This document shows, piece after piece, positions 17,707 to 62,121 of a stretch of DNA of 64,000 nt. The notes under the pieces are model-generated. The model made no database searches. It worked only from the letters and a program-made list of their open reading frames with translations, and was not told the DNA's origin. The stretch lies in assembly GCF_001540865.1 (NCBI RefSeq), contig NW_017893345.1:44955-108954 (forward strand), in the 5' to 3' direction. A program made the position numbers and the translations under genes. The DNA comes from Ananas comosus (Eukaryota; Streptophyta; Magnoliopsida; Poales; Bromeliaceae). The first letter of the stretch is position 1. Every line of letters begins with the position of its first letter.

Positions 17707-17714
17707 GATTAATT

Positions 17715-21894: not shown

Positions 21895-22186
21895 GGATCA
21901 TTGCTTCCTCTTTGCCCTTCCACACCCTTAAATAGGGCAACTCCAACCTTCCATATTGCTCTTTAAGTCTTCTAGACAGTTCAATCACAGGATAACCTTC
22001 AGTTTTAAGCCAATTATAGATTCTTTCTGCAATCCATCCTTTTGAAGCATTCTTGTTTCCACACCTATTGACAACTTCACACATATGCCCTGACTGGAGA
22101 GTTTTGACTCGTCGATATAATAGATTGAAAGAAATAATTAGATTAAAGTAATATTAGACATAGTAGCAATTGAAATTTACTTCTTT
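21895..22186 (-). pseudogene. MuDR-like (Mutator) transposase fragment, downstream piece
   Basis: The minus strand reads RRVKTLQSGHMCEVV, then NKNASKGWIAERIYNWL and a region ending VWKGKEEAMI at the LTR border. This is the conserved segment after the MuDR DNA-binding domain (C-H zinc ligands, ASxxWIA, YxRxWxGKExAM), just ahead of the missing catalytic domain. The clear coding part is about 21895-22130; 22131-22186 has lost the frame and may be intron. It is bounded on both sides by LTR insertions. Its missing upstream piece appears to be the plus-strand fragment ending at 61666. Confidence 0.8.
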
Positions 22187-22191
22187 ATTTA
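22187..22191. repeat. Probable target-site duplication of LTR D (TAAAT on the minus strand)
   Basis: ATTTA on the plus strand, TAAAT when read with the LTR. It matches 61662-61666 in front of the LTR D start, although the two sites are about 39 kb apart and in opposite orientation. Confidence 0.7.
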
Positions 22192-24176
22192 TGAAACGCC
22201 TCGAGACCCGCCACTTTGGTCATATTCGGCACGCTAACAGACCGCCAAACGGACAGAGTTTCTCCTGTACATCCAAGGCGTCGCAACAGTACAATTCACA
22301 AGGTTCCAAATAGGAACAGAATTCATACATCGATTGCATAAGGAAGGTATCAAAGACATAACTGCCAAGCTATTACAAGCATTCAGCTCATTTTACATCA
22401 TATTTACATTAAGTTTACATTCAACTTCCAAGTACAACCATCTTTAGTACAAATTGTTTCATTCTCTCATTTCTACGCCTCTAAGCTAAACTGACTCGGG
22501 GCACTACTATCTCTGGTCTCATGTGGTAGGGCGCTATCTACCGAGCTACTCCCTTTCCTCGTGTCGCCGCGCTGTTCACGTGTGGACCTGAAAATCATGG
22601 GAGTGAGAACTATAAAAATAGTTCCCAGTGGGTACGACTACCCGAGGAAAGAGCTCGACCCACCAGGTCCAAAGAAGGCAAGATAAGTAGGTTAGTCCAA
22701 CAGATATATGTATAAGCATATAATTTATGCAACTAACAACTAACATGCTTATGCCTCACAATATACGATAATGCGACATAAATGCAATACAAATAGATCT
22801 ACCGTTTCTACTTACTATTTCACAATCCATATCGTTTACAGTCCATTCTAAGGTTCTTTTACCTTACCAAGCTATACCACCTGACTCGGTCTTGAATCAA
22901 TCATCCATAGCTCACCGCTTTACTTGACTTAGCCACCTAACGGCGAAATCATCGCACACGCCGAACAATGGCTCAAATCAATGGGCAGCGTAATCCTTTA
23001 CCTGGCTTAGCCATCTGACAGCGAAATCTTCGTACACGCCCAAGCTCTAATTTCAAGGTCACCAAGATCACTGGATGTGCACATCCGTCCATTTCCAAGT
23101 CAACGTCTCTAGGTTTATGTTCTCATGTCCATGTGGTCATCCTACTACTATACCTCATAACCTAGGTTCAATAACGCTAGGTTCAATATTCAACCTATGT
23201 TCAATAACACTAGATTCAATGTCCAACCTATGTTCAATAACATTAGGTTTCAATGTCCAACCTATATTCAATAACACAAGGTTCAATGTCTAGTCATGCC
23301 ACTCGTTATCCTACTTGTCCATACCTAGGATTCATGACATCTAGTCCCAATTTTACACTTGTCAAGTTCTCTAATCTTTTTTAGAGTTCATCGATCTATA
23401 TTCACTAACTACATCTAGGCATACATATATATCCTATATGTTCCACATGCATATGTTCTTGTCCAATGATAGATAATTTACCCTAAATAGCATACTATCT
23501 ATGTCTACTTATTTAACCAATTAATCTACATTACATACATGCATCGATAAATAAAACCATACTTCACTTTGGAATGGAAGCGACCTAGTCACTTCAATGA
23601 AGCACAACCCACCTTTCAAGCCTCCTAATTGCTTGTAGACACTTGCAATTAGGCCAACCACTTGGATCTCCAAGCTTTCTCCCATTCTCCCAAGCTTTTC
23701 TTGCCCTATACAAGAAATCCCTTCATTACCTTTTTCGAACCACTAAATAATCTTTGCTTTTAAAATCAAGTGCTCTTACATGACTTCCTAACCCTCAATT
23801 AGCGTTCTACAGGGCTAAAATATTTTTAGAACCCTCCACCAAGAAAACCCTCTTTCAACCTAGCGTCTTTCCATAACTAGAGGAGAAACTCAACCCATTT
23901 GCTAATTTCTATAATTTGTAGCTTAGATTAGCCTAGGGTTTGCTAGAAATCCATTTAGAAGGTCTAAACCCAAAACTCTAACTCAAACCCTAAAAACGAA
24001 ACTCGAGTCGTAAGCGTTTCGAGCCACAAGCATTTCGAGCCACCAAACGCCCGAGAGCTCGATCCACCACTCTTCCAAGCTTTCCGAGTCCGATCTCCAG
24101 CAAGATCGCCGAGTCAGAGAAGAGGAAGAAGAGGGTGAGAGAGATGAACTCCTCCCTCTCTCTTTCTCTCTATACA
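22192..24176 (-). mobile_element. R-U5 half of a family C LTR (D), minus strand
   Basis: Read on the minus strand this runs from a CT-rich initiator region (GAGAGAAAGAGAGAGG) through the GGTGGGTTGTGCTTC block shared with C1 and the U5 hairpin (22605-22626) to a GGTCTCGAGGCGTTTCA end at 22192. U3 and TATA box are missing: the sequence stops at 24176, where another LTR starts. The bases just outside its end read TAAAT on the minus strand, identical to the target duplication in front of the LTR start at 61667, whose U3 half is present there. The two halves are most simply one LTR. Confidence 0.78.
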
Positions 24177-26040
24177 TGTCACGCCCCGGCCCAGCGGAAG
24201 CCGTCCGATGAGTGCACAGACCCGTCGTGTACACCAAACAACCACAATACACACAAAGCGTCTACTAACAGGAATAAGCAAGATCAAATCCTAACAAGAT
24301 TATCAGAGCGAGTAATATAAAATCACTAATGTTCTAACACAAAGAGATCCATAATTAAATACAAATGTGTACAACTAGATCCACAAGTCTAACATAATCT
24401 CTAAACATTTAGCATTTTCAAGTTAAAGCTTTATATAACTTGCTTGTTACTATACAGGTTGCATAAGACTTACATAATAATTTCAGCTCCAATAATCCAA
24501 GAACCTTAAACGAATTAGTTTAAAGGATTTTTTATCAGCCCTAACCCAAAATCTGCATAATTACTTTAGCCCTACATAGCCTCTACACAACCTGTCACTA
24601 TACAATTGTTACAACAACATATAAAGAGTTTCAAATCTCAACAACCCAAAAACCTTCCACTAGAGAATTGAAGAGATTTAGATCAATCCGTAATCAAAAT
24701 TCTGCATATTAGCTGGTTTCAACTCCCAGCTGTCAAGGCCAATACACCATACATATAGCTTTTCTAGGGTTCTATGGCAAAACAAGCTATAGCAACCCAA
24801 GAACTAAAGCTAAACCATCTTTTAGGTTAATTAAATCAAACCTTATCAAAGAAATATACCAACTCTACTTCAGGTTTACCTCCAACAGGTTACTTCCCAA
24901 CAAATTCTTACTTCTTAAGCCCTCTCACATCAAGAACATATCAAGTAATTCCAAGCCTTAATATTCCTAAGGTCTCAAAACCAAGAGATGGCACGGGATT
25001 TACCTCAAACCCTATCCAAGAGCACAACAAACCTCATCTCTGAATTCCTGGTTTCCCTTGCTCTTAAATTTTCTCACAGCCAAAAGTCTCAACTCCTCCA
25101 AATCCCTCACCACAGGATTTGTAGAGAGAAAAGAAGAATAAAACAAAAGGAGAGAAGAGTCGAGCTAATTGCCTGCAGGAAAATACCCTGCGTACACCAT
25201 GCTTCCCTGCTCGCGATCTTCCTCGCAGCAGCAATCTCCAAATCCCTCATGAATTTCCTTCAAAAACCATCTCGTATGGTTTCTAGAGAGAAGGAAAAGA
25301 AGGAGATAAGAAGGAGAGAGAGAGGTGGTTCACTGCATGAGAACCACGTACATATACCTAGGGTTAAGATAAGCTCAGCCCCAATTGCAACTTGGCCCCT
25401 CACAAAAGCTGAATCAGCTTTTACACGTCAGTCCTCGGGTACTGGTACCCGTACCACCCTGTTTTGGTACCGGTACCAAGTGCAGATCCAGCACTTGGAC
25501 AGCAGCCTGGCAGCAGCCCTTTCTTGAAGTCGTTTCATGCATCCAGTCAATTCCGAATCCCTTTAATTACTTCCAATACATGCCAACAACCATCCACAAG
25601 CTCTCAATTCAATCCGAGAACAAATATATTTCATTTTCTTGCATTATCTTGATCAATTTGATCAAGATAGCCAATGCAAATCCTGCACCTGGCAACAACT
25701 TCACTCCGAGTTTCTTTTTGCGCGACTAATTCACGTCGAACACCTCAAAACCCTTCTAAAACGTACCATTAACTATCCCCAAGCATCAAAAATGATTCGG
25801 AGATGCTACAATTTATCCTCATGCCCCACTTTGATTCATTTAATCAAAGTTAGCGTTACAATCCGAAAAGTCTCTTTAGATTTCGTTTCGCGCCCAATTT
25901 GCGCCGAAACACTCAATTTTCTCCAGAATTCATCCCCACATCTCCAAAATTACTCGGAAATGACACATGACCAACTCAAGCTGCAGTTTGATCCTCTATA
26001 TCAAAGTTAACATTGCAACCCAACTTTTTGGTATATTACA
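24177..26040 (-). mobile_element. LTR (H), minus strand, about 1.86 kb
   Basis: On the plus strand it begins TGTCACGCCCCGG, the complement of the usual GGGGCGTGACA end, and ends GGTATATTACA, the complement of a TGTAATATACC start. Its U3 has GTACTGGTAC and GTACCGGTAC boxes at about 25440-25485 and a TATA-like element at about 25352. No primer site or internal region is seen, so it is probably a solo LTR. The flanking pentamers differ (ATACA on the left, TATCA on the right), so a target duplication is not supported. This fits a rearrangement breakpoint at its left edge. Confidence 0.72.
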
Positions 26041-26648
26041 TATCAAGTGACAATATACTATTTGGTGTTTTTTTTCGTTCCATGGATGTATATAATTATT
26101 CATGAAGAAACATATGTTGACGATGCAAAACCATCCAAATACCTTTAATTATACAAAAATGCGTAGTTGCAATTATTAAAAGAATTACGACAAATCGCGA
26201 ACGAGTTCGTACATCAAGATATAGAGTAATGATCTTTATAAATATTTTTCATAATTTCTCCATTAGTTTAAGTGCGCGAAATTAATAATTTTGTCTTGTA
26301 AGTGTTACATACACTTTGGAGTCCCATGTGTGCCAGTTAGTGCATTATTGCCATCTACTATGATGGGTCCGTCTCTATTGGTTGGTCAAAATGAGCGGAA
26401 AGTGATTGTATTATTTAGTCACATGAAAATTTGACCAATACGAATAGATAATCTTAAATATCATTGCAAGTTTACTATATCTCATAATCAATGTGAAGAT
26501 CTATCATCTAGTGTTCATAAATGTACCGATTGGAAAGTGAAAACTACAATTGATAATATCTCTTTAATATATAATACATTTTTACATTTATATTTATTTT
26601 TATATATAAAAAAAGTTTAGTGTAATCTTGATGGTGCTTTTATTTCAG
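26041..26648. other. AT-rich background, no gene recognised
   Basis: No open frame with recognisable content. A good 3' splice site (polypyrimidine, then TTTCAG) ends at 26648 and suggests this is intron upstream of the next feature. Confidence 0.4.
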
Positions 26649-27170
26649 GTCGATATCATGCAGAAATCACATTATACGTTAAACATGTTCTGCCAGATAT
26701 TCCATATGGCGGAATATTTGAAACTCTATCACAAGTTGTTGATCGAATGGAAACAGTTTTGAATACCCTACATACACTTCCACACACTGTACCTCCACGG
26801 CCAGTAGAACATGGTGGGCCATCGATGTTGGGCCATGTATCACTATATGATCCATCGAAGGCATATTCACCAATAGAGGAGCCACCTTATCATCCAGACA
26901 CAGTACCAACACTAATACAAGAGGATCCACCTCGACCAGTTGATATTATTTATCGTAGGCGCCGACAACAGTTGCAATCTCTCCATACATATCAACGCTC
27001 TTCTTAAGCAGCTCCACGGCCAGACATACTATCGACACATGCTATAGTTGAGCATGAGATCATATGGATGATGAAGACACAAGACACTCAGCCAATTATT
27101 AAGGATGCTGATATCGAACATCTCGACCCGCTGGAAGTCATTTGGAAGTCACAAAGCCCTTTGATGAGTA
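26649..27170 (+). pseudogene. Exon-like remnant of an unrecognised plant gene
   Basis: After a 3' splice site, a frame reads YHAEITLYVKHVLPDIP, then PRPVEHGGPSMLGHVS and IIYRRRRQQLQSLHTYQ to a TAA at 27005-27007. The same frame then continues protein-like (AAPRPDILSTHAIVEHE) to about 27165, so the stop may be a later mutation. The region is rich in Pro, His and Arg. It resembles the tails of transposon-related plant proteins such as plant mobile domain or 'phosphatase 7 long form' products, but I do not recognise it with certainty. Confidence 0.4.
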
Positions 27171-27399
27171 TGGTGTGAATCATCGAAAATTGCACTTTTT
27201 TACAATTTTCTCTATGAATGTAAAGGATATTATTCTTCTAATTTTCGTTATTCATGCCAGAGTACTATTAATTATGCTAAAGAAGACAATAAGTAACATA
27301 AAATATCAAGAGCGCAAACCGAAAGATAATATGAAACATGACTAGAAAAATCTAGTAACATAAGCTTCAGATCCGTAAAATCCAACTAGAAACTTCTAT

Positions 27400-30050
27400 A
27401 GAGCACGGCACTCATAAAACTCACACGATTGAAAGTGATGCTCTCAAACAAACGAATGATTGTTAAAAGATCAAGCAAATGAAAACCACTACGACTAATT
27501 CCAAGAAGGAACAAACCAAATCAATCAATTCCCTACGGTCCATCCCCAAAAACCCAATAAACACCCACAACAACTAATTCCCAGGAAAGAACAAACCAAA
27601 TCTCGTGAACTCTATTTGAGTAAGATACTTATGTTTGGTTTGGCGTACTCGTGATTAGAAACAGAAAAATACTGCCACGATGAGAGCAGTTCCACCCTAC
27701 CCAAATGGAATAACTGCCCCTCCAAGTAAAGGGGCCTCTAAGGACACATGGACGGTCCAATTCCAGTTGGAGGCGCATTAAAATCTTCAGTATGAGGTTG
27801 GATAGTAGGGACGTTACCACCATCCCCATTACTGTCCAACCAACCAAGCACTACGTAAGAGAATCGACAACACACAACTATGTCAACAAGAGAGAGGATC
27901 CTCTCCAACAGCAAAAGAAAGAATCCCCTTCAATGATACTCTACTATCTACTCTAATGGTTAATTCCACAAATAGCATTTAATTCGGAAACCAACGAGAC
28001 GAATCAGCTTTTACAAAGTTACAAATTATTTTGTATGGCATTAAAGACCATGTTGAGGGCTTGGCAACCAAAGAGCGGGTTCAAAATCCAAAGGAGGCTC
28101 AGAGTGACAGATAAGCTCGACACAGTAAGTGACAAAAATCTTCTCCAAGAGATCAGCAATACAGTCCACAATCAAATTTTTGCGGCAAGTCTATCTGCAA
28201 CAACAACACCAAAACCAAGTGAGCGCTATTCACAAACTAACCCGGAGAGGAAGCATAACTAAATTGCAAAACAGTCGAAGCAAATAACAAACAAATATAA
28301 GGAGTTGCAATATAAAAATTAATTAGTTGTCCTTGTGAATCATCGAAAATTGCAACTTCTTTGCTTTTCTTTAATGAATGCCAAAAAAAAGTTTGTCATA
28401 ATTTTCGTCTTCCGGGCCATAATACTAATATGCTAAACGAGACAATATGTAACACAGTAGCCAACACTACAAATCAAAAGAGAAAAGGGAACATGTCTTG
28501 AAAATCTAGTAAGATAAAGCTTCAGATCCCTATTTTCCAAATTAGAAACTCATGTACAGCAGGGCACGCGTAAAACTCGCATGTTTGAGACTTACGCTCT
28601 CAAACAAACGAACCGCCATTTAAAAGATCAAGCAAATAAGAACCACCATACCTAATTCCAAGAGAGAACAAACCAAATCAATCGAATCCCTATGGTATAT
28701 CCTAAGAAAAGCAATCAATATCCAGAATAACTAATTCCAAGAAAGAACAAACCAAATCAATCGATTCCCTACATTACATCCCAATAAAAGCAAACAATAT
28801 CCACTATTACTCCAAGAAAGAACAAACCAATTGATCCTATGGTATGTCCTGATGAAGAACCAGATTTAAAGAGAGTTCAGCCGAGTCATCTTTTGTTTAT
28901 TTGAGTCAATTTTTTCATTAGGGTTGATTGAGTCGTTTATGTTTTAATTTTTTCTAATTTTCAGAGTTATTTTGCTTGTTAATTTGTTTTAATCGTTTTT
29001 AAAAGATTGTTTTAGGATTTATCAGGTAGAATAAATCTCTAAAAACTAGGGATATAGTTTAGGCTTTTTAGATATATTCGAATTGAAAAAAGATCCCTAA
29101 CATCATGGAATTTGAATTAGATTAGGATTATGCTTTGAAGGTTATAAATATAGCCTATGCCTTATGATTTTAGAGACAAGTTATGATGGAATAAAATTTG
29201 AGTTTTGTGTTTTGACCGCGTTAGAGTATCTTCTTCCCCTTCTCTCTTTCCCGGGCGCATAGAGTATCTATCTTCTCTCTCTTCATCTCCTCCTTTATTT
29301 CTTTCGTTTTCTTCTTCTAAATTTTTTGTTCCAATTCTCTAAAAACAATTCTAAAATTTCTGACTTTTTCCTATTTATCGTCTATTTTCTTCAATTTTAT
29401 CTTTTTTTTTAATTATTTTTTAAAAAAATCTGAAAACTAATTTAAAATTTGAGAAAATTCTAAATTTGGTTTTGAATTGATTTTAGGCTCATCACTAGCA
29501 AGATAGGTTAGGATTTTCCTAATTTATCCTACATATTCTAAGAAAAACAATCAATATCCACAATAACTAATTCCAAGAAAGAAAAAAGCAAATGTCATGA
29601 ATTCTATTTTTAAGAAGTTACTTATGATTGGTTGGGTGTACTCGCGATTAGCAATAGAAAATGCTTCCATGGGAATAGTGATTCCAGCCTGCCCCTTGGA
29701 ATTACTACCCCTCTAAATAAAGCAGCCTCTAAGAGTGGGAACATTCACCACCATCCCCAGTACTATCCAACCAACCAAGCACTATCTAAGAAGATCAACA
29801 ACACACAACGATCCTCTCCAATGATACTCTGCCAACTACACGAATGGTTTAATACCACAAATAGCACCAATTTGAAAACCAACGAGCCGAATCAGCTTTA
29901 CAAAGTTATTTTGTATGGCATTAGGACCATGTTAAGGGCTTGGCAACTAGAGCCAGGGGGTAAAGTCCGAAGAAGTTTCGAAGTGGCAAATAAGCTCAAC
30001 ATTGGAAGCAGTGGCACCCGTAAAGCTTCGGACACATCAAAATGCTAAGA
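27400..30050. repeat. Diverged direct repeats in intergenic DNA
   Basis: Two copies of about 500 bp (about 27600-28120 and 29570-30020) share ordered blocks: a GTACTCG-GATTAG segment, CCAACCAACCAAGCACTA, ACAACACACAA, GATACTCT, CCAACGAG-CGAATCAGCTTT, and TTTTGTATGGCATTA followed by GGGCTTGGCAAC. A shorter related motif (TTCCAAGA-AGAACAAACCAAATC) recurs at about 27505, 28660, 28735 and 28815. Between the copies is an AT-rich region with a long pyrimidine block (29220-29320). No gene is recognised. Confidence 0.6.
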
Positions 30051-30129
30051 AGGGAGGCTTAGATATCAGCTAAGAAGGGAGATGTCAATAGCATAAAAAA
30101 TGCTACACGTTTAGGGTTATGGAGACCTA

Positions 30130-34254: not shown

Positions 34255-37086
34255 TGTAAGGAAGTGAATTCTCGAAGTACGAGAGTTGGACTTCATTCAG
34301 AATCGACCAAGGGTCGTGTTGGTGAGCTTTGGAAAAGCCAAAGATACTAAAATCACCAAAAGTGCATTGGAAATGAGTCCACGAAAGCAAATAGTGCAAA
34401 ACTTGCACTGGAGCAAAATTGCTCTCGGGGACCGGTCCCTGGCAGGGAGGGACCAGTCTCATCAGCTGGTGTCACGGGGTTGCTTGAGGCAATCGGTCCC
34501 TGGAAGGGAGGGACCGGTTCCCGAACGCGTGACCCAAGCTGAAGCTCTCGGGGACCGGGCCCAAGTCGGGGAGACCGGTCCCTCCGCGCGCAGAATGCCC
34601 AGTAAGGGCAGTGCACAGGGTGAAAAGTTGAGAGGGCCAGCTGGATATTGTTACAATAAGAGGGCTTGTGGTCCCTCTCTCTTCCTCAGCCCCTCATTTC
34701 CCTCTCTTCCTCACTCACACTCTCTCTCTCTCTAGAAAAAGAAAGAGAAAAAGAAGAAGAAGAAGAAGAAAAGAAAAGGAAAAGAAGGAAGAAAAGGAAG
34801 GAGAAGAAGAAGGGGATCAAGGAAAAGAAGCTTTTGGACTTCTCCCTCTTCCTCTTCTTTCTCTTTTGAGCTAACCTAGAGGTAAGCTTCTAACCCTAGC
34901 TTATGAAATTCAGNCTCAGGAAGGCCCAACCGATTCCCGAACGAGTGACCCGAGCTGAAGCGCTCGGGGACCGGTCCCAGGTCGGGGAGACCGGTCCCTC
35001 TGGGCGAAAAATGCCCAGTAAGGGCAGTGCACAGAGATGAAAGTTGAGGGATTTGTTTGGATATTGTTACATTAGAGTATGTAGGCCCCCCCTCTCTCTC
35101 CAACCCTCATTTCACTCTCCCTCACACTCTTTTCTCTTCCTCTCTCTCTCTAGAAGAGAAAGAACAAAACAGAAGAAGAAGAAAAGAGAAGGAAGAAAAG
35201 GAAGAAAAGGAAGGAGAAGAAGAAGGAGATCAAGCTAGAGGAAGCTTTGGACCTCTCCCTCTTCCTCTCTTCTCTCTTTGAAGCTACAACAAGAGGTAGG
35301 CTTCTAACCCTAGATGTGAAATTTAGGATTTTTGGGTTTTAGCTCTTTGGATGGGGTCAAATAGACCCCTAGCACCATTGTTGGTGGATTAAAACTAAAG
35401 TTAGGGTTCCAAAATGCAAATGGTAAGATGTGAACCCTAGGGCTCCAAAATAGGATTTTTGGTAAAGTATGAGATTGATCTCACTTGAGGTCTTGGAAAC
35501 CTAATTGGTACGTGCCTAAATGCGGGGGCGAAGTCGGATTTTGCATTCGTCAAGCGGGTGAAAAGCTTTTGGCAAAACAAGACCGACCGAGCTTCATTTG
35601 GACCAAGAAGGCTAAAGCCTCGCCGTAACGTTCGTTGGAGGGCATTTCTAGAGCCTCCATACCCTCAAGAGGTAGGGGGTGTCATCCCGAAGCAACCGGG
35701 TTTCCTTTTATGTCTAAGTTATATATATATATGATTGATCATATCGCACTATAGGAATAGTAGTTGTACATTTCCATTTCCTTGCATGCTTTCTTGGTAG
35801 TGTAGCGAGGTGAGCTTAACACGTGGACTAGGATAGCATGAGGATTGGGTCTTGTGACATAGAATCCTATAGCGGCATAAAGAGCCGAACTTGGACATAT
35901 GATAGCCTAGAAAAATGGCATTGAACTAGTGTGGTAGAAGCACTATGACATGAACGAGTGGCATGTAGAATAATTGAGACATTTACTACAATGACTGAAC
36001 GAGTGGCATCGAATCTAGTGTAGTAAACGTGACATGAACCTAGGGATAATAGAAGTCCCAACATTGATTATATATCATGATTGTGCAGCAGAGGCACATT
36101 GACCCTAGTAGACAGGGTATCCTCTTGAGAGGATTGGATCATACTCACTAGTCTGTTTTCGCTTGTCGGTGGTCGCTCCACCGAAGCACGAGTCTTCGGA
36201 GTACTTCACTAGGGGCAGACGTAGTTGTCCCGCAGACGGTCTCGGTGTGCGAGTGCAGCTTCTCCTCACCTATGAGATTGAGAGTGAGTCGAGGGAACCT
36301 ACGGGTTAGCCGAGTAGATTGGGTAATAAACATGAAATGCATAGTAGACTTGTATTATTACTTTGAGTAGACATAGTGTATGTTGTAGATTGCATTGCTA
36401 TGTACTTTTCTATACTCATGACATGATACTAGCATGATAGTAGTTGTTGCATGCATCGTTATCATTGGTGGCATGATAGAGTAGTTGCAGTTCATTACTA
36501 TATATATCTATCTCTCTATCTGTGCCAGCTTAAACCTAGTGGAAAAATCGACGGAGTCGGCGGCCGAACCCACTGGGAACTATATTTATATAGTTCTCAC
36601 CCCGTGTGGGTTTGGGGTATAGGTACACAGAGGCGAGCCGAGCGAGGATCGCGGCAAGGGCATAGCGCCCTAAGTGAGTAGTTAGTAGCTTTCTTTTTTT
36701 GCATATAGAGTACCCTCGTGTACTAGATGATGTGTATTTTGGATAGACATGGAAAGCTATGACGTATTTTGGGAAAAACATGTATTTACATTTTGAAAGA
36801 TGAAAATGTAATTAACCAAATGATGTAACTATTGAATGGTTGTAATAGTTAAACTATCTCTCTTTATACACTTGTACATTTACTTGTGGTTCTTGCTCTT
36901 AGTCGTATTACACTTGTGTGCATCATATTGATCATGTATATTATTTAAGCATTCCCTGGGCGCTTAATTGTACTTGATCAGGTTGTTTAGCCTTGAGCGG
37001 ACAGGGGAGGTACTGTCCGTTCGGCGTCCGTCCGCCGCGCCAGGACCGGACCAAATTGGTAGCGGTCTCGGGGCGGGGGCGTGACT
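34255..37086 (+). mobile_element. Family C LTR (C2) in an intron, with internal duplication and an N
   Basis: The LTR runs from TGTAAGGAAGTG to CGGGGGCGTGACT. Flanking pentamers TTTGT (34250-34254) and TCTGT (37087-37091) differ at one base, so the target duplication is imperfect. U3 has GGGACCGGTCCC-type boxes (about 34428-34580 and 34970-35000). A segment of about 410 bp (34501-34913) is repeated with clear divergence at 34917-35325, and a single N at 34914 separates the copies. Each copy ends in a CT-rich leader, a purine block rich in AAG/GAA and a splice-like GGTA-GCTTCTAACCCTAG. The U5 hairpin is at 36575-36599. No internal region is seen. Confidence 0.78.
34914..34914. other. Ambiguous base N
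   Basis: The only N noticed in the window. It lies exactly between two diverged copies of the same LTR segment, so it may mark a join between contigs or two collapsed LTR copies. Confidence 0.95.
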
Positions 37087-44598: not shown

Positions 44599-47149
44599 CG
44601 TCATGCCCCGGGAATCAGCATAGGCCCGCCCGAGGCGTGCCCAGACCCGCCATATGCCTGCACATATAAGGCGTCTACAACACTAAAGATATAAAAGCAA
44701 GGAAAAGTAAGACCACTATAGATATCAGAGTAACCAGCAGCTAAATTCTAACAACAAGTAGAGGAAAAAGAAAACTAATCCACTAAAGATAAAACATAAA
44801 GTAGATACATCAACTGTCTCAAAATACAAAATGGGTGGTCTCTATACATGGTACAACTCTCACCTCTCCAAAATAAAACCGATGAGAGGTAGACCACCTA
44901 TCGATACGTCCCTCGCCAAAGGGCTAGCTCGAGGCGATGCCCTTTCCGCAATCCCTAGCATCGCCCGGTATGTAAGGCTCTGAAAAGGAAACAAGAAACA
45001 GGGAGCGTGAGAACTATAATTTATAGTTCCCAGTGGGTAATTACTGACCTCAGCACAATGCACCACTAGGCCCAAAAGGGTAAGATAGGTATGAAAAGCA
45101 ATAGAAATAAACTGCAGATAGGAAAGCATGTATAAATGCTAAACTACTATGCCATAAACAATATGATGTCAATATGTTGTACATACACTCTACCATGATC
45201 AAATATGTCCAAAACATAACTAGTATGATCCCACACGGCAAACAAGTATACTGTAATGCAATGAGCGATATTACTAGGCATACTACATGTCTTAAATGTC
45301 CAAAGCTATGCATTAAGCATGTCAAGCTAATCCAACTACTACACCCTATCTAGTAGTGATTATCATTTATGGATTGTTATCATTGTTCAATCTTGTTTAA
45401 GGACTTACACAAGTGTAGTCCAGCTTGTTCCACCTATGTGCGGGTGGTAGCTCCAACATTCCCACTCTAGGAATGAGTCTATCCCTCCTGACCCCGTAGG
45501 TTTCTCGATACCGCACGAGCGAACATAAGTCACATAAGCCAACTCCGGAGTGCCGGCTTGTAGGGAGCAACCCTCACAAGCATGTGCGAATAAGCACAAA
45601 TGGCAAGCAAGCATAGTCATCGTCTCAAGTACCCAATCATCATGTCTCTAACATGATAACCATCACTAATAACCCATCAGTCTAGTTCTATGTCACAAGG
45701 TGATGTTCCAACTTTCACTAAGTCTAGTACCTCTTTATGACACTATAACATTGCTATATCTAAGCATGTTCCAATTCCCATGCCTCTTTATGGCATTATC
45801 ACAAGGTTCACATACAACCCCAGGCTCAATGTCGCTTTATGACATTAGCTCACTAATTTACATGATTTTCAAGTCTCAAGCCTCTTTATGGCCTAATGTA
45901 TTCTCATAATTCCAAACAAGGTTTATGTCCAAGGCATAATACATTTACCATGTCTACTATATAAAGCATGATTCCAAGTCTCAATTAGAATGCTAAACCC
46001 ATGTATAAGTCCCACACGCAAGCTCTCTACTACATAGAGGTCCGAAAATGCATTGTATATAACACAATCATTTCAAGCATTCTAAAATTCATAATTAATA
46101 CATCTAACATGAAAATGCATGATGTTTCATTTTACGATACATAAATCCACAAGAATGAGATTTTCTCATTCTTAGATGAGGTCAAATCCACCGAAACTTG
46201 CGCAACCCTTCGTTTGCTCCAACGGGAGTGTCCACTAGCCTCCTAGCACCCTAGAAGCATCAAAAAGTGAGCTACACGAAGCTAACGAACAACCACAAGA
46301 GTAAACATTAACCATCTAGACATAAGGGGCCAAAATCTCACCTATAGTGTAGAAATCTCCCTACAAAGCTCAAATGGGAACCAAATCCCTTCCAAAGCAA
46401 CCTAAACCAAGGTTCTAATCCAATTAGATTGGCACAAAAAGCCTCTAATCAAAAAGCCCCAAATAAACCCTAGGTTTTCCATTCTAGGGTTTCACCTCCC
46501 AAAACCACCAAATCTAGGTCTAGAGAGGAGAAGTGAGCAACTAAACCCAATAAAAGTTCCAAACCAAGCCCCAAGAGTGAGGATCTCCTCTCAAACAAGC
46601 CCTAAGTCCAAGCCTTCAAGCATCAACAAGGTGGGAAGAGAGGGAAAGGGAGATGTCCCAAGGCCTTCAAGCTTGATCCTCTTCCTCTTCTTCTTCTTCT
46701 TCTTCTTCTTGAGAGAGAAAGAGAAAGAAATGAGAAAGAGTGAGGGAAATGAGAGAGGGAGAGACCCCTGCCCCCTCTACATACTCTGAGAGACGAAACA
46801 AATGCAGAAAAACCCCCCCACTTCACCTCTCTCACACAGCCCAGATTGGGCTGACTTCGGGCAGAGGGACCAGTCTCTCCCACCTGGGACCGGTCCCTCA
46901 GGACCCTTCCGCAGTCTGCGCGTTCAGGAACCGGTCTCTCTGACCCGGGGGACCGGTTGCCTCAGGGGGACCGGTCTCTCCCACCAGGGACCGGTCCCCG
47001 AGAGTGAAACTCTCAGGACTTAGCCAAAAATCCAGAATTCGAACTTTTAGGTCGGAATACAGTCTACGACCCTCTACCAAGCGTGGAAAAGCTCAGAGCA
47101 CAAATCAAACACTCAAACCTTGCAATTTGCAAAGGTCCAGTGTGTTACA
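44599..47149 (-). mobile_element. Family A solo LTR (A3), minus strand, nested
   Basis: The 2551-bp LTR is in reverse orientation: CGTCATGCCCCGGG at the left (terminal TG mutated to CG) and GGTCCAGTGTGTTACA at the right. The target duplication CTTAT is at 44594-44598 and 47150-47154. Inverted U3 boxes here are of the GGGACCGGTCCC/GAACCGGTCTC kind (46870-47000), unlike the GTACCGGTAC boxes of other family A members, although the LTR ends are family A. The hairpin is at 45009-45031. A TTC microsatellite occurs at about 46682-46710. Confidence 0.9.
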
Positions 47150-47310
47150 CTTATAGTAGGCTTATGTTCTCGCTCTGATAGCCATGTTAGGATTGTTTCT
47201 TTTCCATGTTGTTGTAGACGCCTTGTATGCACCGAAGGTGCTTAGTGTACACGGCGAGTCTGTGCACGCGCCCGTTGGGCTTCCGCTGGGGCTCGGAGCG
47301 TGACAGTTTT

Positions 47311-48000: not shown

Positions 48001-48005
48001 GTTCA

Positions 48006-50445: not shown

Positions 50446-50450
50446 GTTCA

Positions 50451-53400: not shown

Positions 53401-54937
53401 ATAAACACACCGGTGAAGACAAAAATTGCAAATGAAATCATCACTTAGAGAAAAGGAAAGAATGCAGAACCATGGCATCATCTTTGACGCTAAAGTCTGA
53501 TGTTTTAGACATGTCCTCATAAGGCTGGTAAGCCTGCAAAGATGTAAGACAAGACAAAAACGTTATCTCCGCTTCATATAACAGAAAATTATTATGCTAA
53601 AAATAAAAGAAAATTTTCTAAAAGGTCATTTTAGAAACTCGTTCATATTGTAATGAATTAAATCATACTCCCTCAACACGTGCAATCTTATAAAATGGAA
53701 GTAAATTCGTTTCAGCAGAAAAGGCGATGAAGGACAGCAAATCTCACAATAGCACTGCAAGTTGCACTAGATTCGGCATCCATATTTTCAGCTTGAGTTA
53801 CAGCAGCACATGAAAGACCTTCGTACATAAATCAATTAAAACAAAAGAATAAGGTTAACAGTAAAAGGAAAGTAAAGATTTTGAATAACCTTTTCGAGGA
53901 AAGAAACTTAGAAGAAAGTATCCAAAAGGCAAGGAATATATCTCGATTCCTACTGCATCCAGCATTCCTCACCATTATGTAGGATTTGAAACTCGGTAAC
54001 TAGTCACCGCTAAACTTCCATGAATAGCTTACTCGCTCGCACACCCATTGCAACATGCAATCAATGAATATGTCAAATAGTGGGTATGGTTGTCAAACAA
54101 TTTCTACTGCCTCTGATTTTCCAGACACATTCTTTTCAGCCAAGCAATTTACAATCTCACCGGTATACACGCTTCCCCAAAAAGATAAGTAGATGTTAAC
54201 ATTAGCTAGCCATCTATAACAGAGTAAAGGACGTGACAGAGTAAAGGACGTGACAAATTGGGGAACTCTCTGCAGCACTTGACTAAGAATTAGTATATAT
54301 TACACGTCGGCAAAGGACACACTATCAATACTGAGAGGTGTTAGAAAGATTGCAATGTGGCATCCTGGCCCGGTTGAGCTAGCTTCTATCGGGTATGGCG
54401 CTTGCTTTAGGAGGACCTTCCAATGGAGAGTTGGCAAAACATTTTGGCGACCTTTTGGATGCAGCAGGCTGCAGCCAAGATCAGCTAGCTGGTTTTGGAC
54501 CAAAACGGACAAAAAGTCATAGGCAGAGAGATAGGTGCGAGCTTTGAGGAGACAGCACAGGTAGGTTGAGTCTTGCTATTGTAACACCATGGGAAATTAG
54601 TATAAAAGTGCAAGGGGAGAGCAGACAATATGGTTATTTTGATCATCCGGACAGACAGGTACTGATCTGCATCTTATTTTTAGCTCCCTTGCCCTCTAAC
54701 ACTGGATAATGCAAGTTCTTGGTTTGTATGAAAATTACGATGGCGGACAATAGGCGAAGATTGTGGTACTCATTCTCAAACAAGAGGATGGAGAGCCACT
54801 AACAAAGCTTTAGAGAAGCCACACGTCAGATGTGATGACCACGTACCGGCAAGCCATATGATGGCACAATAGATAATATAAACCGGCGATAATGCACAGA
54901 GAAGGAAAGAGTGACATGGGAAAGAAAACTGCAGTAC
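50451..54937 (-). CDS. Intron-rich interval of the minus-strand gene with one probable exon
   Basis: The best exon is 52695-52626 (70 nt, minus strand) between CTGCAG and GTGAGC, reading MWFGVAIALHMQYAVRHAD and leaving phase 1. Two weaker candidates are near 53530 (AYQPYEDMSKTSDFSV after a TTTGCAG) and near 53770 (AENMDAESSATCSAIV). An AT-rich region around 51150-51640 looks like a diverged copy of 53380-53720 (shared GAAGACAAAAATTGCAAA-GAAATCATCACTTA and TAAAAGAAAATTT blocks), so one candidate exon has been duplicated. The rest holds no recognisable sequence. Confidence 0.4.
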
Positions 54938-55209
54938 TCTCTCCAGAGTCGGCGGGAACCATCTCCTCCTCGTCGCTCAGCTTGGGCCGCTTCGTCCTCG
55001 CCTCCACGTCCTGCGCAGGAAAGTAGGACCAACAAAAATCCTAGAGTTCCCCTTCCTCCAACAGGGTACGAACTATCTAAGGCGCAGTTGTCTAAAGAGA
55101 GCAAGCGACCGGGATTGGAGAGACGGGTGGATGGATAGACAGATGCATAGATAGATAGATAGATAGATACCTCCGATGGATCCTCGTCGTGGACGTTCAT
55201 CCCGTCCAT
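54938..55209 (-). CDS. First two exons of the large minus-strand gene
   Basis: Exon 1 is 55209-55171 (ATG to GAG, 13 codons, MDGMNVHDEDPSE), followed by a GT donor that runs into a (TATC)n repeat. Exon 2 is 55010-54938 (73 nt) after CTGCGCAG, reading DVEARTKRPKLSDEEEMV and leaving phase 1. The KRPK basic cluster followed by an acidic stretch looks like a nuclear localisation signal. The GC-rich, CpG-rich sequence from about 55200 to 55600 upstream is a plausible promoter and 5' UTR. Linking these exons to those at 39-31 kb rests on strand, spacing and absence of another start, and is not proven. Confidence 0.62.
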
Positions 55210-55620
55210 GACGTGTGGGATCAGCGTTGGAGCCGTCGATGCCTCTGATCGTCGATCGAGTTCTTCAGTTCGGATATACGAAATAATGGCCGCTACTAGT
55301 ACTCGTGGGGATGAAACCGATCCGACGACGCGGACGAATCAGAACCCGTCCCGGCAACGGTTCCGACGTGCGACGGTTTTTTGGTTCCGCTTTTCAACCG
55401 GTTCAAAGCGGCAACCAGAAAGCGACCAGGGAGTCGACGCCGACGACTTCGACGCGAGGCGGCGGCGGCGTTGATGGCTTTGATGGGGGCGGCTGAAGGA
55501 GAGGAGGGAGAGCGAGAGATCGGCGGGCCCTACTTGAGGGCGTCCGCCGTAGAGACGGGTTTCGATGGGGGAGTCTGCCGGGCGGACAGCCGTAGAGACG
55601 AGTGAAACCCTAGAACGAGG
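55210..55620 (-). promoter_or_regulatory. GC-rich, CpG-rich probable promoter region
   Basis: This stretch is much richer in C, G and CpG than the AT-rich surroundings and lies immediately upstream of the minus-strand start codon. Open frames on the plus strand here have low-complexity Arg/Gly composition and are by-products of base composition. A poly-T run lies at about 55679-55699. Confidence 0.45.
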
Positions 55621-55699
55621 AATCCCGAACAGGGATTGTTGATTGAAAAAGGATTTGGATCTTATACGGGCACGTTTGGATTTTTTTTTTTTTTTTTTC

Positions 55700-56630
55700 T
55701 TTCTGCAGTAACTCCTTGTATACTAGTGAAAGCGTCCGCGCTTTGCAGCGGATAAAACTATAGGAGTAATTAATAATAAGAGAACTTCAAATGATGACGC
55801 TTTCTCCGAGGATGATGATAGTAAAGATGACGACGATCCCTTCAGCCACGGCCGAGAGGGAAAATAGGCACGCATTAGTGAGAAAGGGAAGGAGGGAGGG
55901 AGGCGACGGTGTATAGGAAAAGATGAGGAAGAAAAAATTGATGAATTAATTGGAGATGAGAAGATGCGGATTGTAGATGGCAGCGGATGGTTTGGATGCA
56001 TTAATTAGAAGTCTGGTGTAGAAAAGAGGAAGGATTATAACGAATTAATTGGAGAGAGAAGTGAAAATTGTAGATTATAGCGAAGCTATTTAAATGCATT
56101 AATTAAAAATTTGTTAGTGAAAATATTTAGATGTATTAATTAAATGCATTAATTAAAAGTTTGATGAAGGAAATGTGGAGGGTCAAATGCTAGTGAGGGT
56201 GAAGGACAACTTGCCACATGGCAAAAATTATTGGGGATTCATATAAGTTAATAGATATATTCTATCGTTATTATAAAATACTCCTGCAATTATCCTTGTT
56301 AAGTTAACTCAGATTAAATATAAATTAAATATATACCAAAGTTAAAATCTAATTAAAATACCTATTATGCCCCTATCTTATTAAACGGACTTTTTTTTGC
56401 AAATAACCTCCTGAGAAATTTTTATTTTAAAAATAGCCCTATCAAATTTGAAATTGCAAAAATAGCCCTGTCTCTGCCACGGAGGCGCCACGTCAGCGCC
56501 ACACGGGTAGGGCTGGGGTCAGGTGTTTAAGTTGAACACGGTGAACCATTTTACCGTGTTCAAACACGGTGAATGGTTTACCGTATCCAGTGTAGAATAC
56601 GCCCCCAAACCAGTGCGCGTATACCACATT
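55700..56630. other. AT-rich flank with start of an ACACGGTG repeat region
   Basis: No gene is recognised. 'attaattaaaag/aaatgcattaatta' motifs recur at 56095-56165. From about 56385 the sequence changes to 'aaaatagcccta' and 'gccacgtcagcgccac', phrases I associate with transposon borders in plants. From 56533 the ACACGGTGAA inverted motifs begin. Confidence 0.4.
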
Positions 56631-56830
56631 GGACACGGTGAATGGTTCACCGTGTCTAATACAAATACCTAGCTCTTAGCCAAAAGTGGCTAAGTTACAT
56701 GTAGTTCTATTGGACACGGTGAATGGTTCACCGTGTCTAATACAAATACCTAGCTCTTAGCCAAAAGTGGCTAAGTTACATGTAGTTCTATTGGACACGG
56801 TGAATGGTTCACCGTGTCTAAACACAATGA
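56631..56830. repeat. 81-bp tandem repeat with ACACGGTGAA palindromes
   Basis: Units start at 56631, 56712 and 56793 with GGACACGGTGAATGG, an exact period of 81 bp, and the first two units are nearly identical. Each contains ACACGGTGAA-TGG-TTCACCGTGT, a 10-bp inverted repeat with a 3-bp centre, and a second inverted pair AGCCAaaagTGGCT. Degenerate single copies flank the array (56535-56590, 56826-56850). Confidence 0.85.
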
Positions 56831-56849
56831 ACCATTCACCATGTCCAAT

Positions 56850-57104
56850 ACAACTACCAACCCTTCCCAGTACAATACAACATCAGATCAATCAACAATA
56901 CAACTTCACAACGAGGTCAGCACAACAGTACAATACAACATCACAACGCAACAACAAATTAATCCAATAATACAAATAATTCAACATTAACAATACATAC
57001 ATCAGTATCAACAGAATCTCAATAAAGTATCAATACCAGATAAATCACAACAGAATATCAAAAATTAAAGCAAGTTTTACAATATATCGAAGATACGACC
57101 AATA
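56850..57104. other. CAA/ACA-rich low-complexity DNA
   Basis: Dominated by 'caatacaacatcacaacg'-type repeats. No coding content. It ends where the truncated LTR begins. Confidence 0.6.
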
Positions 57105-58165
57105 TAGAACACATAGGAGGCATTTCTCTCCTGTTTCATGAAGTCAAACCCACCGTGACTCTCGCAACCTTTTGTTCGCCGAACGAAGGTGCCCACTATT
57201 CTTCTAGCACCCTAAAGGTATAGAGAAGAGAGTTAAACGAACATTACGATCACCCCAAAGATCAAACATTAAGCAACTCAAGAAAAAGGTGAAAACTCAC
57301 CGAACACGAAGGAAACTCTCACGATCTCCGAATGGGAGTTAGAGTCCTTCCAATCTAACCTAAACAAAGGTTCTAAGCCCATCAATTTAGATCAAAAAGC
57401 CCTAAATCAAAAAATCCTCATTTCTAACCCTAAGTCTCATTTCTAGGGTTTCATCTTAAGAAATCCATCAAAATATGAATCTAAAGCAAGAATCATGCTA
57501 CTAACCTGAAATGAAGCTCCAACCTAGGCTCCAAGTAAGCTAGGGTTAAAGATCCTCCCTCCACAAAGCTTCAATCCCGAAATCCAAGCTTCTCCAATGG
57601 TGGAGACCAACAAGAAACAAGAAAAAGTAAGGAGGAGGAGATCAAAACTAGCAAAAACCCATCAAAAATGGAGAAAACCCAAAAGAAAGAGTACTCACCT
57701 TTGTTCTCCACTGGTTAGAGCTCAAAAGAGCTCTCAAGGGGGCTCGGGTGGGTTATAAAGGGTTTGCAATAATTGCAAATACACCCCTTAATAAAAACTG
57801 CTCGCCCTGCACTGTGTACCGGTACACGAAAAAATGTACCGGTACGAATCCTGCGAAACAGCAAACCCGAGCCTCGGGTTTGAGATTTACCACAAGTGTA
57901 CCGGTACAACCATCAAGGTGTACCGGTACAAATCCTATACCGGTACAACCATCAAGGTGTACTGATACACAGCCCTACAGAATGCAACCCGAGAGCAGCC
58001 TAAGTCCATCCCTTTGGTGACCTTAGAGTTACTTAAAATACCATAATTCTCGGAATACGAGCCATAGGTCGGATCACTGTCCCGACCCTCCAGAATATCT
58101 GGAAAAGCTCGGAACACAGAGCAAACACTCGAACCTTGCAATTTGTAAAGGTCCAATGTGTTACA
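57105..58165 (-). mobile_element. Truncated family A LTR (A5), minus strand
   Basis: On the minus strand it starts TGTAACACATTGGACC at 58165. It has U3 with GTACCGGTAC boxes (57817-57950) and CCCGAGCCTCGGG (57866-57878), then the transcribed region with the CTTCGTTCGGCGAACAAAAG and GGTGGGTTTGACTTCATG blocks. It is cut off at about 57105, where A1 would continue for another ~1.3 kb. No hairpin or U5 end is present, and no target duplication can be tested. Confidence 0.85.
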
Positions 58166-59111
58166 ATTAATCATCGTCCTCGTGATAATCCATTGATCGG
58201 AAGCATTTAGGAATTAACCACTAATGACACGTCTCAAATTCTCAACTTTTGAGAATATATGTCATCATCTTATTAATTTCTTGGACAATTCATGGACACA
58301 TACACAACATGAATGGAAATAAGAACCCAAATTTATTCATAATATTTTAAAGTCAAATATAAATTTATGTCCTATAAAGAATACATGTGTGGGCCTGGTT
58401 GGCTTCCAGGGCATACATCTAATAATTTCTAGATATGTTAGACCAATTCACAGATGACATAGAGATAGAAATATTTGTTACTATTAGCTCCTATGGCATC
58501 CCTTTTAATTTTAATGTTCAGCATGATGATGCTACTGATACTACTGGTACTAATGATATTAAATTCATACGATTGTAACTTATAAAATTATTTGATTAAG
58601 AAATACGTGCTTTTGATACATGAAAGGGAGTGTTCATCTTTTGGAGCATAACCGTTATGATCAAAGTATTGTAATTTCTTGGTCGAGTGGGAGATTTTGA
58701 CTGTATAATTTAGTTGGTACCTAATAAAGTTTTTGTATCGCCTATACGGTAATAAATATATCACTAGGCTAAGTGCGAGAATGTTTGAGTGGCCGACATG
58801 ATATATTCAAGGCTATCTATAAAGAGACGGTTAATCTAATTAAGTCGATCTATAAAGATACAGTAGATCTTACGGTTAGGATGAATTTGGACACGTCCTT
58901 GATGGACGGACGTGATTTAACATCCTTATATCAAGTTATATATAAATATGTAACATACAGAAGTTCCGGTCTAACCCTAATCCAATTGTCTGTGATGGCT
59001 CCATTTCCGGAGATAAGGAAATTAGATTCGAAACGTCCCGTTTTCTTGCAGATCGTGAACGGGGACGAACCACGAGCAAAAGTCGCCGCTTACAAATCGG
59101 GTACAGAAATC
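58166..59111 (+). other. Upstream flank of the MuDR-like gene, possibly its N-terminal exon
   Basis: An open plus-strand frame from about 58773 (FKAIYKETVNLIKSIYKDTV, then FPEIRKLDSKRPVFLQIV) runs into the family B LTR. It lies on the same side and strand as the MuDR-like domain at 61440-61666, so it could be the start of that transposase gene, but no diagnostic motif confirms this. 58166-58770 shows nothing recognisable. Confidence 0.3.
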
Positions 59112-59116
59112 GAAAT

Positions 59117-60989
59117 TGTAGTATCCCTGGTGTTCAGCTTTTTTAGGCTTGTCGACACGCCGTGAGAGTGTCGGGACAAGTCCGAATCTCGTTGGCGCAA
59201 AATAGACGCAAAACGGACTTAGTGGGGATGCGAGAGCAGGAGTTAGCATTGGAATCTGCGAATTTGCAGATTTTTTGCTTGTTGTACCGGTACAACATCA
59301 GGGTTGTACCGATACACTTTCTGTACCGGTACAGCATCGGAGGTGTACCGGTACACTTCGCCTGATTGGCGAGCAGCTGCTCTCGAGTTGCCATCTATAC
59401 CGGTACGGGTGCTCGTGTACCGGTACACCTGGTTAGGTGAGGGGCTTTTTGGGAATTTTCTCACCTCCTTGTTGTCACCCTCTCCCCCACTCCTTCTTAT
59501 ACGTGGAGAGAGGCTGAGAGAGGGGATTTTTCATGCAAACCTCTCCTCTCTCTCTCTAGGTTGAAGCCGATCGTGTGGTGCTTGCCGAGGGAGTTGGTTC
59601 GTCGCCGACGTCGCGTCGCGGTGCCGTTCGAGTGTGCGTTTGACGTGGTAGCATCGTGGGAAGGCCGGGCGAGGGTACGATTCCGCCGTTTCGACGTCAC
59701 GCCGGTGTTGGTTTGGCATTTAGAGGTGGGTTAATCGTCGATTTACCTCCTAAGTAGCTATATGGTCGGCATGTATTTATCGTGTTGTTTAGTATATTTA
59801 GATTGCTCGATTCATGGATTTCATGTTGTTATCTTCAAAATCTGAATTGGAGCTTTGTCTTTTGCTAGTATCTGCTACACATGTGGGACTTGGATATGAC
59901 TTAGGAGAAAACTGCGACTATGACCTGTCATATGCCTAAACTACCTGATTTAGCTTTAGGAGCCGTTGTTATTTTGTATCACCGCAATATCAGCGTGGTG
60001 GATACCCCAAGAAGTTTAGATCTCTGTTACGCTCGTGCTGGGATGCCGAGTGTATTTTTATAGTAGTGTTCAGACTGTTCCGGATAGTTAGGTGCCGTCG
60101 GGATTGACGGTGACCCAGTTTGCCAAGTTGACATCAGATTTGCCGAGGACACGTGACTTGTTGGTTGTTAGACCAGTTGGACCCTGTTTCTTGACTTTAG
60201 CCTGTGAGAGCCTGATTGAGCTCGACAGAGATACGCTTGCATACTCGTTTCGGTCGCGCCCACGAGTGCCACTCCGGAGTCCGGCTTAGTGCTTTTGCGT
60301 TGGTGTCGTTGTGTCCTGGTTGGACTTGCTCTCACTAACTACCGAGTGTGGTGGTTGTTAGTGTAGCTTCGACAGGCGGGACGAGTGTATCACAGTCCCT
60401 GGTGAGATTGGGTTAGGATTTACTTTTACTACAGTTGGTTAGTGTAGAGCATGATAGTGTAGTGGCATGTAGCTGTGATTGTCTTCCAGCTTTCCCTACT
60501 ATCTTTACTTCCTTCTGTAGACTTAGTGGGTGTACCGATAATGTTGAGGGTGGCACCCACTGAGAACTACTTGTTTTACAGTAGTTCTCACGCCCAGTTG
60601 TTACCCTTCTTTTGCAGAGCCATCGGTTCCGGCTGCTGCATCTTCTGGGGGTGATCGTGGCAAGGACGTTGCAAGCTAGAGCCCTACCCGACGAGTTGCT
60701 GAGATAGAGGACCCCTGCTGAAGGTAGAGTTACTTCTGTTTGAGTTCATGTACATACAGATGTTATGACTCGCTGGGACGAGCCCTTTTTGTACCTGGAT
60801 AGTATGTATGTATATGGAACTCACTTTTGTTTAACTTGTTCTTTTTCTTTCTAGTAGCTCTATATTACTGGTTGTAGTGTTGTTTGATTACAGTTTCAGT
60901 ACAGCTTCGCTTCGTATACAGAAAAAACTCCTTCGTATACGGCGGGTCTGTTGGCATTCTCGGGGAAACGTGTAATCCGGGGCGTGACA
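59117..60989 (+). mobile_element. Family B solo LTR (B2)
   Basis: A 1873-bp LTR from TGTAGTATCCCTGG to CGGGGCGTGACA, with the perfect target duplication GAAAT (59112-59116 and 60990-60994) and no interior. U3 has perfect GTACCGGTAC palindromes (59284-59420) that the family B LTR at 1180 lacks. A CT-rich initiator is at 59541-59560. The U5 hairpin at 60562-60589 has the longest perfect stem in the window. Confidence 0.93.
60562..60589 (+). ncRNA. Conserved LTR hairpin (best example)
   Basis: GAGAACTACT pairs with AGTAGTTCTC around a short loop, preceded by a CCCACT motif and followed by CACGCCC. Equivalent hairpins occur at 3246-3270, 5970-5992, 17262-17283, 22605-22626, 36575-36599, 44364-44387, 45009-45031 and 49986-50009, always in the R/U5 part shortly before a TTTCAGAGCC-like site. 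Stem positions change in pairs between copies, supporting an RNA structure. Its role is unknown. Confidence 0.6.
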
Positions 60990-60994
60990 GAAAT

Positions 60995-61666
60995 CATGGT
61001 AGAAGGTACGATCTTAAGTTCTTATAAAGTTTCAAATAGTGATAATGGTGTTGATAGTTGGGAGAAGGATAAAGCTGATATTGGAATTGAGGGTGTAGTT
61101 GATGGTGTAGTTGATGTTGAAGTTGATGAAGAAGATAATGTTGGAGATTTGGGTGCAACTGAGATAGAAGATGCTGTTGGAGATAAGGCTGTAGCTGAGA
61201 AAGAATATAGTGTTGAAGATGAAGGTGGAGCTCATACAGAGGCTGATCATGATGGTGGAGATGATATAAGGCTGATTTGGTTAGAGATGAGAGGGGAGAT
61301 GAGGGTAAAGCTTACACGAGGGCTAATAATGTTAGAGATGATGAGGAGAATAAGGGAGTAGATGAATCAGATAAATCTATACTGAAAATTTTAAAAAGAA
61401 TTTAGTTTTTAGTTCCATCGAAAACGACTCAAATAAGGATAAGTTAGTTTATGATAATGAGAATCCAATTATGGACAATGGTGTGAAGTATCCTGATGTA
61501 AATTCATTCCGAAGTACTCTTCTTTCAATTCGTTGTCCAAAATGAATTTCAATACAAGGTTATAAAAAGTGATCAATCTAGAGTGACAGCAAGCTGTATG
61601 ATAGAAGGTTGTGGGTAGAGAATACACGCAACAAGGATTTGAGGAGAAGCTACATTTCAGGTAAAT
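60995..61666 (+). pseudogene. MuDR-like (Mutator) transposase fragment, upstream piece
   Basis: An acidic linker (many Asp/Glu/Gly/Val, 61060-61300) is followed by the start of the MuDR N-terminal DNA-binding domain: NPIMDNGVKYPDVNSFRSTL (about 61460-61515), then after a one-base frameshift QNEFQYKVIKSDQSRVTA, CMIEGCG, a stop, and RIHATR. It ends at GEATFQV next to the LTR at 61667. The next residues expected in the family (VKTL, then the H-C ligands) are those that open the minus-strand fragment at about 22115. CAGGTAAAT at the junction also resembles a 5' splice site. Confidence 0.8.
61662..61666. repeat. Target-site duplication of LTR D (TAAAT)
   Basis: TAAAT directly precedes the TGTAATATATCGG start of LTR D. 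The matching copy, in reverse orientation, is at 22187-22191 next to an LTR end. Confidence 0.72.
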
Positions 61667-62121
61667 TGTAATATATCGGACTCCTACAATTATGAAGTTT
61701 CGGTGGGAACGAGCTTAAAAAGCTATTAAATAAGTTCCGGTGAGATTTGGAGAGCATTTGAGCATTTTTAGCGCAAACTAGATTCGAAAATGGACTCGAA
61801 AAGCTGGAATCTGCCTAAGTTGCAAATTTTGAAATAGGCTATCGGGCTTTGAGGTACCACAACTGGGTACCGGTACCAAGTTCATTGGGTACCGGTATGC
61901 TGGGACGGGTACCGATATGCAGTGTAATTATAGAAAATTCTGCGCTCAAGTTCTCGAGAAAATGAGCTCGGGTACCGGTACTGAAGCTGGGTACCAGTAC
62001 TGGATCGCGCGAGTACTGGTACGCGAACCCGAATACTGGTACTCAGCCTGGCAGAGCGCTGTTTTTGAGGAGTAAAAGTGTAATTTCAGTAGGGTTTATA
62101 AATAGGGGTCCTTGTGAGTTG
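61667..62121 (+). mobile_element. U3 half of family C LTR D
   Basis: It starts TGTAATATATCGGACTCC, followed by AATTATGAAGTTTCGG as in the C1 LTR. It carries GTACCGGTAC-type palindromes at 61867-62041 and a TATA box (TATAAATAG, 62097-62105). It stops about 15 bases after the TATA box, where element F2 begins (flank AGTTG). The R-U5 half is not to the right but, inverted, at 22192-24176. Confidence 0.8.

Follow-up and report, generated by a model that had tools for sequence, protein, structure and literature searches.

MULEs are typically recognised by terminal inverted repeats and a 9-bp target duplication. The gene considered here resembles the MuDR/MULE elements in carrying the MuDR DNA-binding domain (PF03108) above the profile cut-off and in having copies dispersed through the genome, but differs from them in being decayed and frameshifted, split by one LTR (C), occupied by a second, solo LTR (J) and cut at 58426 and 21894, both ends of this copy being cut away. 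Its surroundings are best compared with the nested LTR retrotransposons and solo LTRs of plants, with which they share TG..CA ends, 5-bp TSDs, the primer binding site TGGTATCAGAGC and the insertion of one element into another, and nothing in them lies outside the known range. We take C, E, H, J and K to be gypsy-like types and F, from its layout, to be a SIRE-like copia element, some of these type names being assigned here. The third system to be considered is ectopic or illegitimate recombination between LTRs: PMC7251063 counts elements and solo LTRs without TSDs among the products of unequal recombination, and a comparable feature of the present locus is a hybrid LTR (24177-26040) whose flanks, TGTAT and TGATA, differ. 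However, the switch within this hybrid is not at matching LTR positions and the product is an inverted arrangement, whereas the word “inversion” does not occur in the main text of that paper.

The stretch of DNA that was analysed, hereafter the window, spans positions 44955-108954 of contig C2860, reaching the end of that contig; it is 64 kb long, has a GC content of 41.3% with a single ambiguous base at 34914, and consists of a nest of LTR retrotransposons. The genome searched amounts to 381,958,007 bases in 3128 contigs, including C2860 itself, C2099, a contig of 225,124 bp that repeats the region, and the pseudomolecule C17. The original prediction, made from the sequence of the window, held that one MULE gene and the LTR insertion within it are now two opposite-strand parts about 38 kb apart, and that the breakpoints are set off by LTR ends at 24177 and 62121. 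The split into two inverted parts is a true and well-founded observation, but its breakpoints were wrongly placed, both points being TSD-bearing insertion junctions, and what remains is ordinary scrambling driven by transposable elements. The features on which this reading depends are the following:

10392-12811 (right edge approximate), plus strand: family-C LTR, the reference copy within the window
21895-22191, minus strand: MULE 3' piece, made up of the intron remainder and an exon opening with VKTLQSGHMC; TSD TAAAT at 22187-22191
22192-24176, minus strand: family-C R-U5 piece, 1985 bp; 24172-24176 (TGTAT on the minus strand) is one TSD copy of E
24177-24406, minus strand: remnant of the 3' LTR of E, its last ~230 bp, inside C
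24407-26040, minus strand: front of a family-H LTR (first 1634 bp), whose start TGTAATATACC is intact and which breaks off in mid-LTR at 24407
57083-58165, minus strand: M-type LTR, truncated at 57083; the C17 copy leaves the window near 57204
58426-58549, plus strand: upstream MULE exon piece; homology to paralogs stops at 58425/58426
59117-60989, plus strand: solo LTR J in the MULE; TSD GAAAT at 59112-59116 and 60990-60994
60990-61666, plus strand: MULE 5' piece with a frameshifted PF03108 domain; TSD TAAAT at 61662-61666
61667-62112, plus strand: family-C U3 piece with TATA box; its last 5 bp, GTCCT, are one TSD copy of F
62113-64000, minus strand: F, comprising its 3' LTR (62113 to about 63328) and a portion of its interior; extends to 101435 on C2099

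When the two halves of the gene are considered, the sequence agrees with what had been predicted: on the plus strand, the MuDR-like frame runs up to the intron start GGTAAAT, behind which the LTR start TGTAATAT lies at 61667; on the minus strand, the frame VKTLQSGHMC... comes after the LTR end ..GGCGTTTCA at 22192; and TAAAT borders both LTR ends. The plus piece matches PF03108 in Pfam with 36.4 bits (E 4.1e-09, profile positions 24-58 of 67, cut-off 25 bits), while the minus-strand piece alone matches no transposase family there. The score is 41.3 bits once the exon end is added to the plus piece and 38.2 bits when the minus-strand piece is attached to it as well; the domain stops where the exon does, and these scores are therefore silent on the join. 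No MULE transposase core domain was found among the ORFs scanned, which were part of those in the window, and the gene is cut by LTR K at 21894.

It is the distribution of relatives in the genome that connects the two pieces. The 5' piece matches 14 non-focal places (all 16 candidates were scored, including the two focal contigs), and at 12 of these the 3' piece lies directly behind it with an overlap of 4-5 bp (19 of 19 candidates scored); of the other two, C13:4841910 shows the 3' piece in truncated form at a distance of 10 bp, and C179 lacks it. Three non-focal places (C17:10.2 Mb, C1:8299705 and C8:4963788) match the 3' piece without a 5' match, the first being a copy of the present broken locus. 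All 12 MULE copies that were fetched are contiguous and show an undisturbed intron start, namely GGTAAATAAG in seven, GGTAAAGAAG in four and a variant in one. Because the relatives are uninterrupted and TAAAT stands on both sides of the LTR, the two pieces are one gene entered by LTR C; the placement of matches genome-wide puts them in the same family, and not in different MULE families, the outcome that had been named as speaking against the prediction.

The assignment of both LTR pieces to family C, with U3 and TATA box on the plus strand and R-U5 on the minus strand, likewise stands. Their best relative in the window is 10392-12811, to which they are colinear and in matching orientation, their local scores of 95 and 180 standing well apart from the highest values reached in 30 shuffles each, 38 and 59 (eight LTR stretches compared). 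As the second-best match of the minus piece (16893-17706) scores 91 and the plus piece also resembles LTR J (80) and LTR K (71), the assignment rests on the best matches together with the order found at other loci. At six of the nine distinct non-focal loci examined, U3 and R-U5 follow each other in order with 32-69 bp between the matches; among the other three, the minus-strand matches of L022 and L024 were dropped by the strand filter and L008 did not show this order. The insertion itself has TG..CA ends, a single 5-bp TSD (TAAAT/TAAAT) and an empty site in 12 of 12 fetched relatives. No intact copy of the focal C insertion, named beforehand as evidence that would speak against the prediction, was found among the candidates scored (40 of 248 and 40 of 4481).

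The two points once taken as breakpoints have a different nature. F is inserted in C at 62112/62113, with a TSD (GTCCT/ATCCT) in which four of five bases agree and with LTRs that differ at 15 of 1215 sites (K 0.0125). Its LTR ends in ..CTCACA before AG and a primer binding site, so that F begins at 62113 with flank GTCCT, 9 bp away from the start at 62122 that had been given for this LTR (F2). Beyond the window, on C2099, F ends at 101435 and is followed by ATCCT, 34 bp of C, TGTAT (101475-101479) and an LTR start at 101480. The end of this E-family LTR is followed on C2099 by GATTATTG and the primer binding site TGGTATCAGAGC, and is therefore the end of the 5' LTR of E, which makes 24177-24406 the tail of the 3' LTR of the same element. 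E is thus inserted in C at 24176/24177, its 5' terminus being C2099:101480 and its 3' terminus position 24177 of the window: immediately behind the LTR end at 24177, the R-U5 piece of C opens with TGTAT, and since TGTAT flanks both ends of E and is present once in relatives of C (read by eye), it constitutes the TSD (TGTAT/TGTAT).

A single inversion of 24177-62121 with breakpoints at LTR ends, as originally proposed, would fit the orientation of the pieces, but it is now extremely improbable, as both points are TSD-bearing insertion sites, of E and of F, and the 34 bp of C that belong between them are found elsewhere. Flanked on either side by a TSD copy, these 34 bp are located beyond F, at C2099:101436-101479 and a second time at C17:7.131 Mb; inverting 24177-62121 would hence not rejoin the C LTR, and the rearranged segment is not 24177-62121. 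An inverted F1/F2 pair was likewise considered as the cause and discarded by reasoning, given that both C pieces would fall inside the flipped part.

The stretch 24177-26040, which had been read as one LTR of family H, is a hybrid of the end of E (24177-24406) and the front of H (24407-26040). Of 40 scored places matching the query 24177-25300, three are the focal locus, 36 match only from query position 894-897 onward, corresponding to 24177 to about 24406, and one matches only the other part. Among the family-H places listed, 18 begin exactly at 26040 and others 2-21 bp later, with a few secondary matches starting further in; by eye, the four family-H copies that were fetched continue beyond the switch for about 650 bp or more, and the LTR end of E is matched by none of them. 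The flanks of the hybrid differ, TGTAT standing on one side and TGATA, the 5' flank of the family-H part, on the other. On the opposite side of the locus, 58426-58549 is MULE sequence in all five paralogs fetched upstream, and homology to all five stops at 58426, at a point that falls, by eye, inside an apparent coding exon of the paralog. The part of the MULE upstream of 58426 occurs neither in the window nor in any of the stretches fetched from the focal locus. Judged from homology between sequences, the real discontinuities are accordingly to be placed at 24406/24407, inside the 3' LTR of E, and at 58425/58426, inside the MULE exon. A reciprocal junction was sought among 40 candidates scored out of 3209, in which no E-LTR piece ending at the cut was listed.

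Other LTRs near the right-hand cut were examined as alternatives. LTR J, whose start at 59117 is given by 38 of 40 scored places that are non-focal and start at query position 165 or later, is an ordinary insertion and not a breakpoint, because its TSDs (GAAAT/GAAAT) are perfect. The M-type LTR at 57083-58165 and the 5' LTR of E are only 70% alike, for which reason homologous exchange between them was rejected. A different M-type copy, a solo LTR at 44599-47149 (minus strand, TSD CTTAT), has an empty site at the matching place on C17 and represents a presence/absence difference between copies of the region. Homologous exchange between the LTRs of H and E would have to join non-matching positions, H running at least about 650 bp past the switch and E having ~230 bp left; it is therefore disfavoured, and end-joining fits better.

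Taken together, the pieces have a single origin: C entered the MULE, E and F entered C and J entered the MULE, with duplications, and the locus bears two cuts. The history that we consider probable is that the insertion of E and F into C was followed by illegitimate breakage and joining that cut the 3' LTR of E and the MULE exon. A family-C retrotransposon, now represented by a single LTR, would first have entered the MULE intron (TSD TAAAT), and its LTR would then have taken up, in the R region, the gypsy-type E (TSD TGTAT) and the SIRE-like copia element F (GTCCT/ATCCT). Later breakage and joining would have cut the 3' LTR of E at 24406/24407 and the upstream MULE exon at 58425/58426, leaving the MULE 5' part, C U3, F, the short C stretch and the 5' LTR of E opposite in orientation to the tail of E, C R-U5 and the MULE 3' part. 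Some 34 kb of other DNA would now separate the oppositely oriented parts, and the far breakpoint would lie outside the window. Illegitimate joining may have produced either one inversion or a rearrangement of greater complexity, with 24406/24407 or 58425/58426 as its junction; the 34 kb between the cuts are not accounted for by one simple inversion and may have arrived either with it or later.

An alternative to an inverted rearrangement of a single locus is an inverted duplication, in which MULE plus C would have existed twice in opposite orientation, each copy losing a different half. Part-duplicates of the locus do exist in the assembly, the left block having a second copy on C17 (94-97%), but the only contigs with the MULE 5' piece at 100% are C2860 and C2099 (16 of 16 candidates scored), R-U5 occurs at 93% or more only on C2860, C2099 and C17 (among 40 of 4481 candidates scored), the C pieces overlap each other by the 5-bp TSDs only, and two losses of complementary halves are the less likely course, all of which makes such a duplication improbable.

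Whether the order of the parts could instead have been produced by the assembly depends on the comparison of contigs. Window positions 41703-64000 correspond to C2099:72000-94233 in two blocks at 99.6% and 99.1%, an alignment of about 22 kb that contains 71 mismatches and 53 gap positions; C2099 carries the R-U5 and U3 pieces of C at 100%, and the order is the same on both contigs, as read up to C2099:56260 and from C2099:72000 onward. No N runs occur in C2099:72000-141600, and C2099:51276-56260 aligns unbroken. It was also observed that C2860 and C2099, the same region at about 99%, are only 97% alike in LTR J, and that they are either redundant assembly or two haplotypes.

C17 holds a partial third copy in reverse, at 94% for 25696-20677 (L019) and 96.8% (K 0.0228) for 34175-24198, with more at 48682-44142 and 57200-56945; this copy includes the 24406/24407 junction and the MULE 3' part. 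To the left of about 57204, C17 has sequence of an M-type LTR, and the matches obtained with C17:10144001-10161600 are all short and weak, none of them continuing the window. One sampled 2-kb stretch (C17:10176001-10178000) has no match in the window, so C17 has its own DNA at that point. The left block lies on C17 at 10.17-10.21 Mb and the right block, which runs from inside F to the 5' LTR of E, at 7.126-7.139 Mb, in the same orientation and 3 Mb apart; the right block is bounded on its left by 100 N, this gap falling inside F. As a separate observation, C17:10161550-10171743 shows a purine tract before an LTR start, pol to its right and a second LTR end, and looks like a tandem array sharing LTRs.

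These data bear on an assembly artefact, by which the left and right blocks would have been misjoined somewhere in 57204-61666 or via a repeat, lying apart or in the same orientation in the plant. This explanation keeps some weight because C17 places the two parts differently, with its gap inside F and its departure near 57204. It loses weight because the order is shared by two contigs of differing sequence, and further through the lack of N runs and the unbroken alignment on C2099 and through the TSDs that tie together the MULE 5' part, J, C U3, F, the short C stretch and E; on balance we regard it as rather unlikely. The same-orientation placing on C17 speaks either against fixation of an inversion or against the ordering on C17 itself. 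According to the MD2 paper (PMC8774480), there are chimeric regions in F153 v7. Were the placing on C17 real, two haplotypes would differ by an inversion of ~3 Mb on chromosome 17 with one end in the present retrotransposon nest, which seems very unlikely. Breakage and joining within a single split locus thus remains the reading that we prefer. The locus may serve as a worked example for scrambled retrotransposon nests, in which TSDs and the empty sites of paralogs tell insertion junctions from true breakpoints, and it flags a region of chromosome 17 where the pseudomolecule disagrees with two other contigs, which is useful for assembly checking.

Several other repeats of the window deserve mention. 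LTR K is a U3 piece only (21894-21455, minus strand), and at about 21455 it is fused with a pol frame of gypsy type running in the opposite direction, and the same fusion is present in the C17 copy. In 10392-17720, a purine tract is followed by the C-family LTR that breaks off near 12811, then by a SIRE-like piece without 5' LTR (3' LTR to about 16901), another LTR end and a primer binding site at 17715. Direct-order repeats of about 60-430 bp occupy 27174-30001, within the part shared with C17. Finally, 34513-35326 is a tandem duplication of ~400 bp (80%), with the only N of the window (34914) at its joint.
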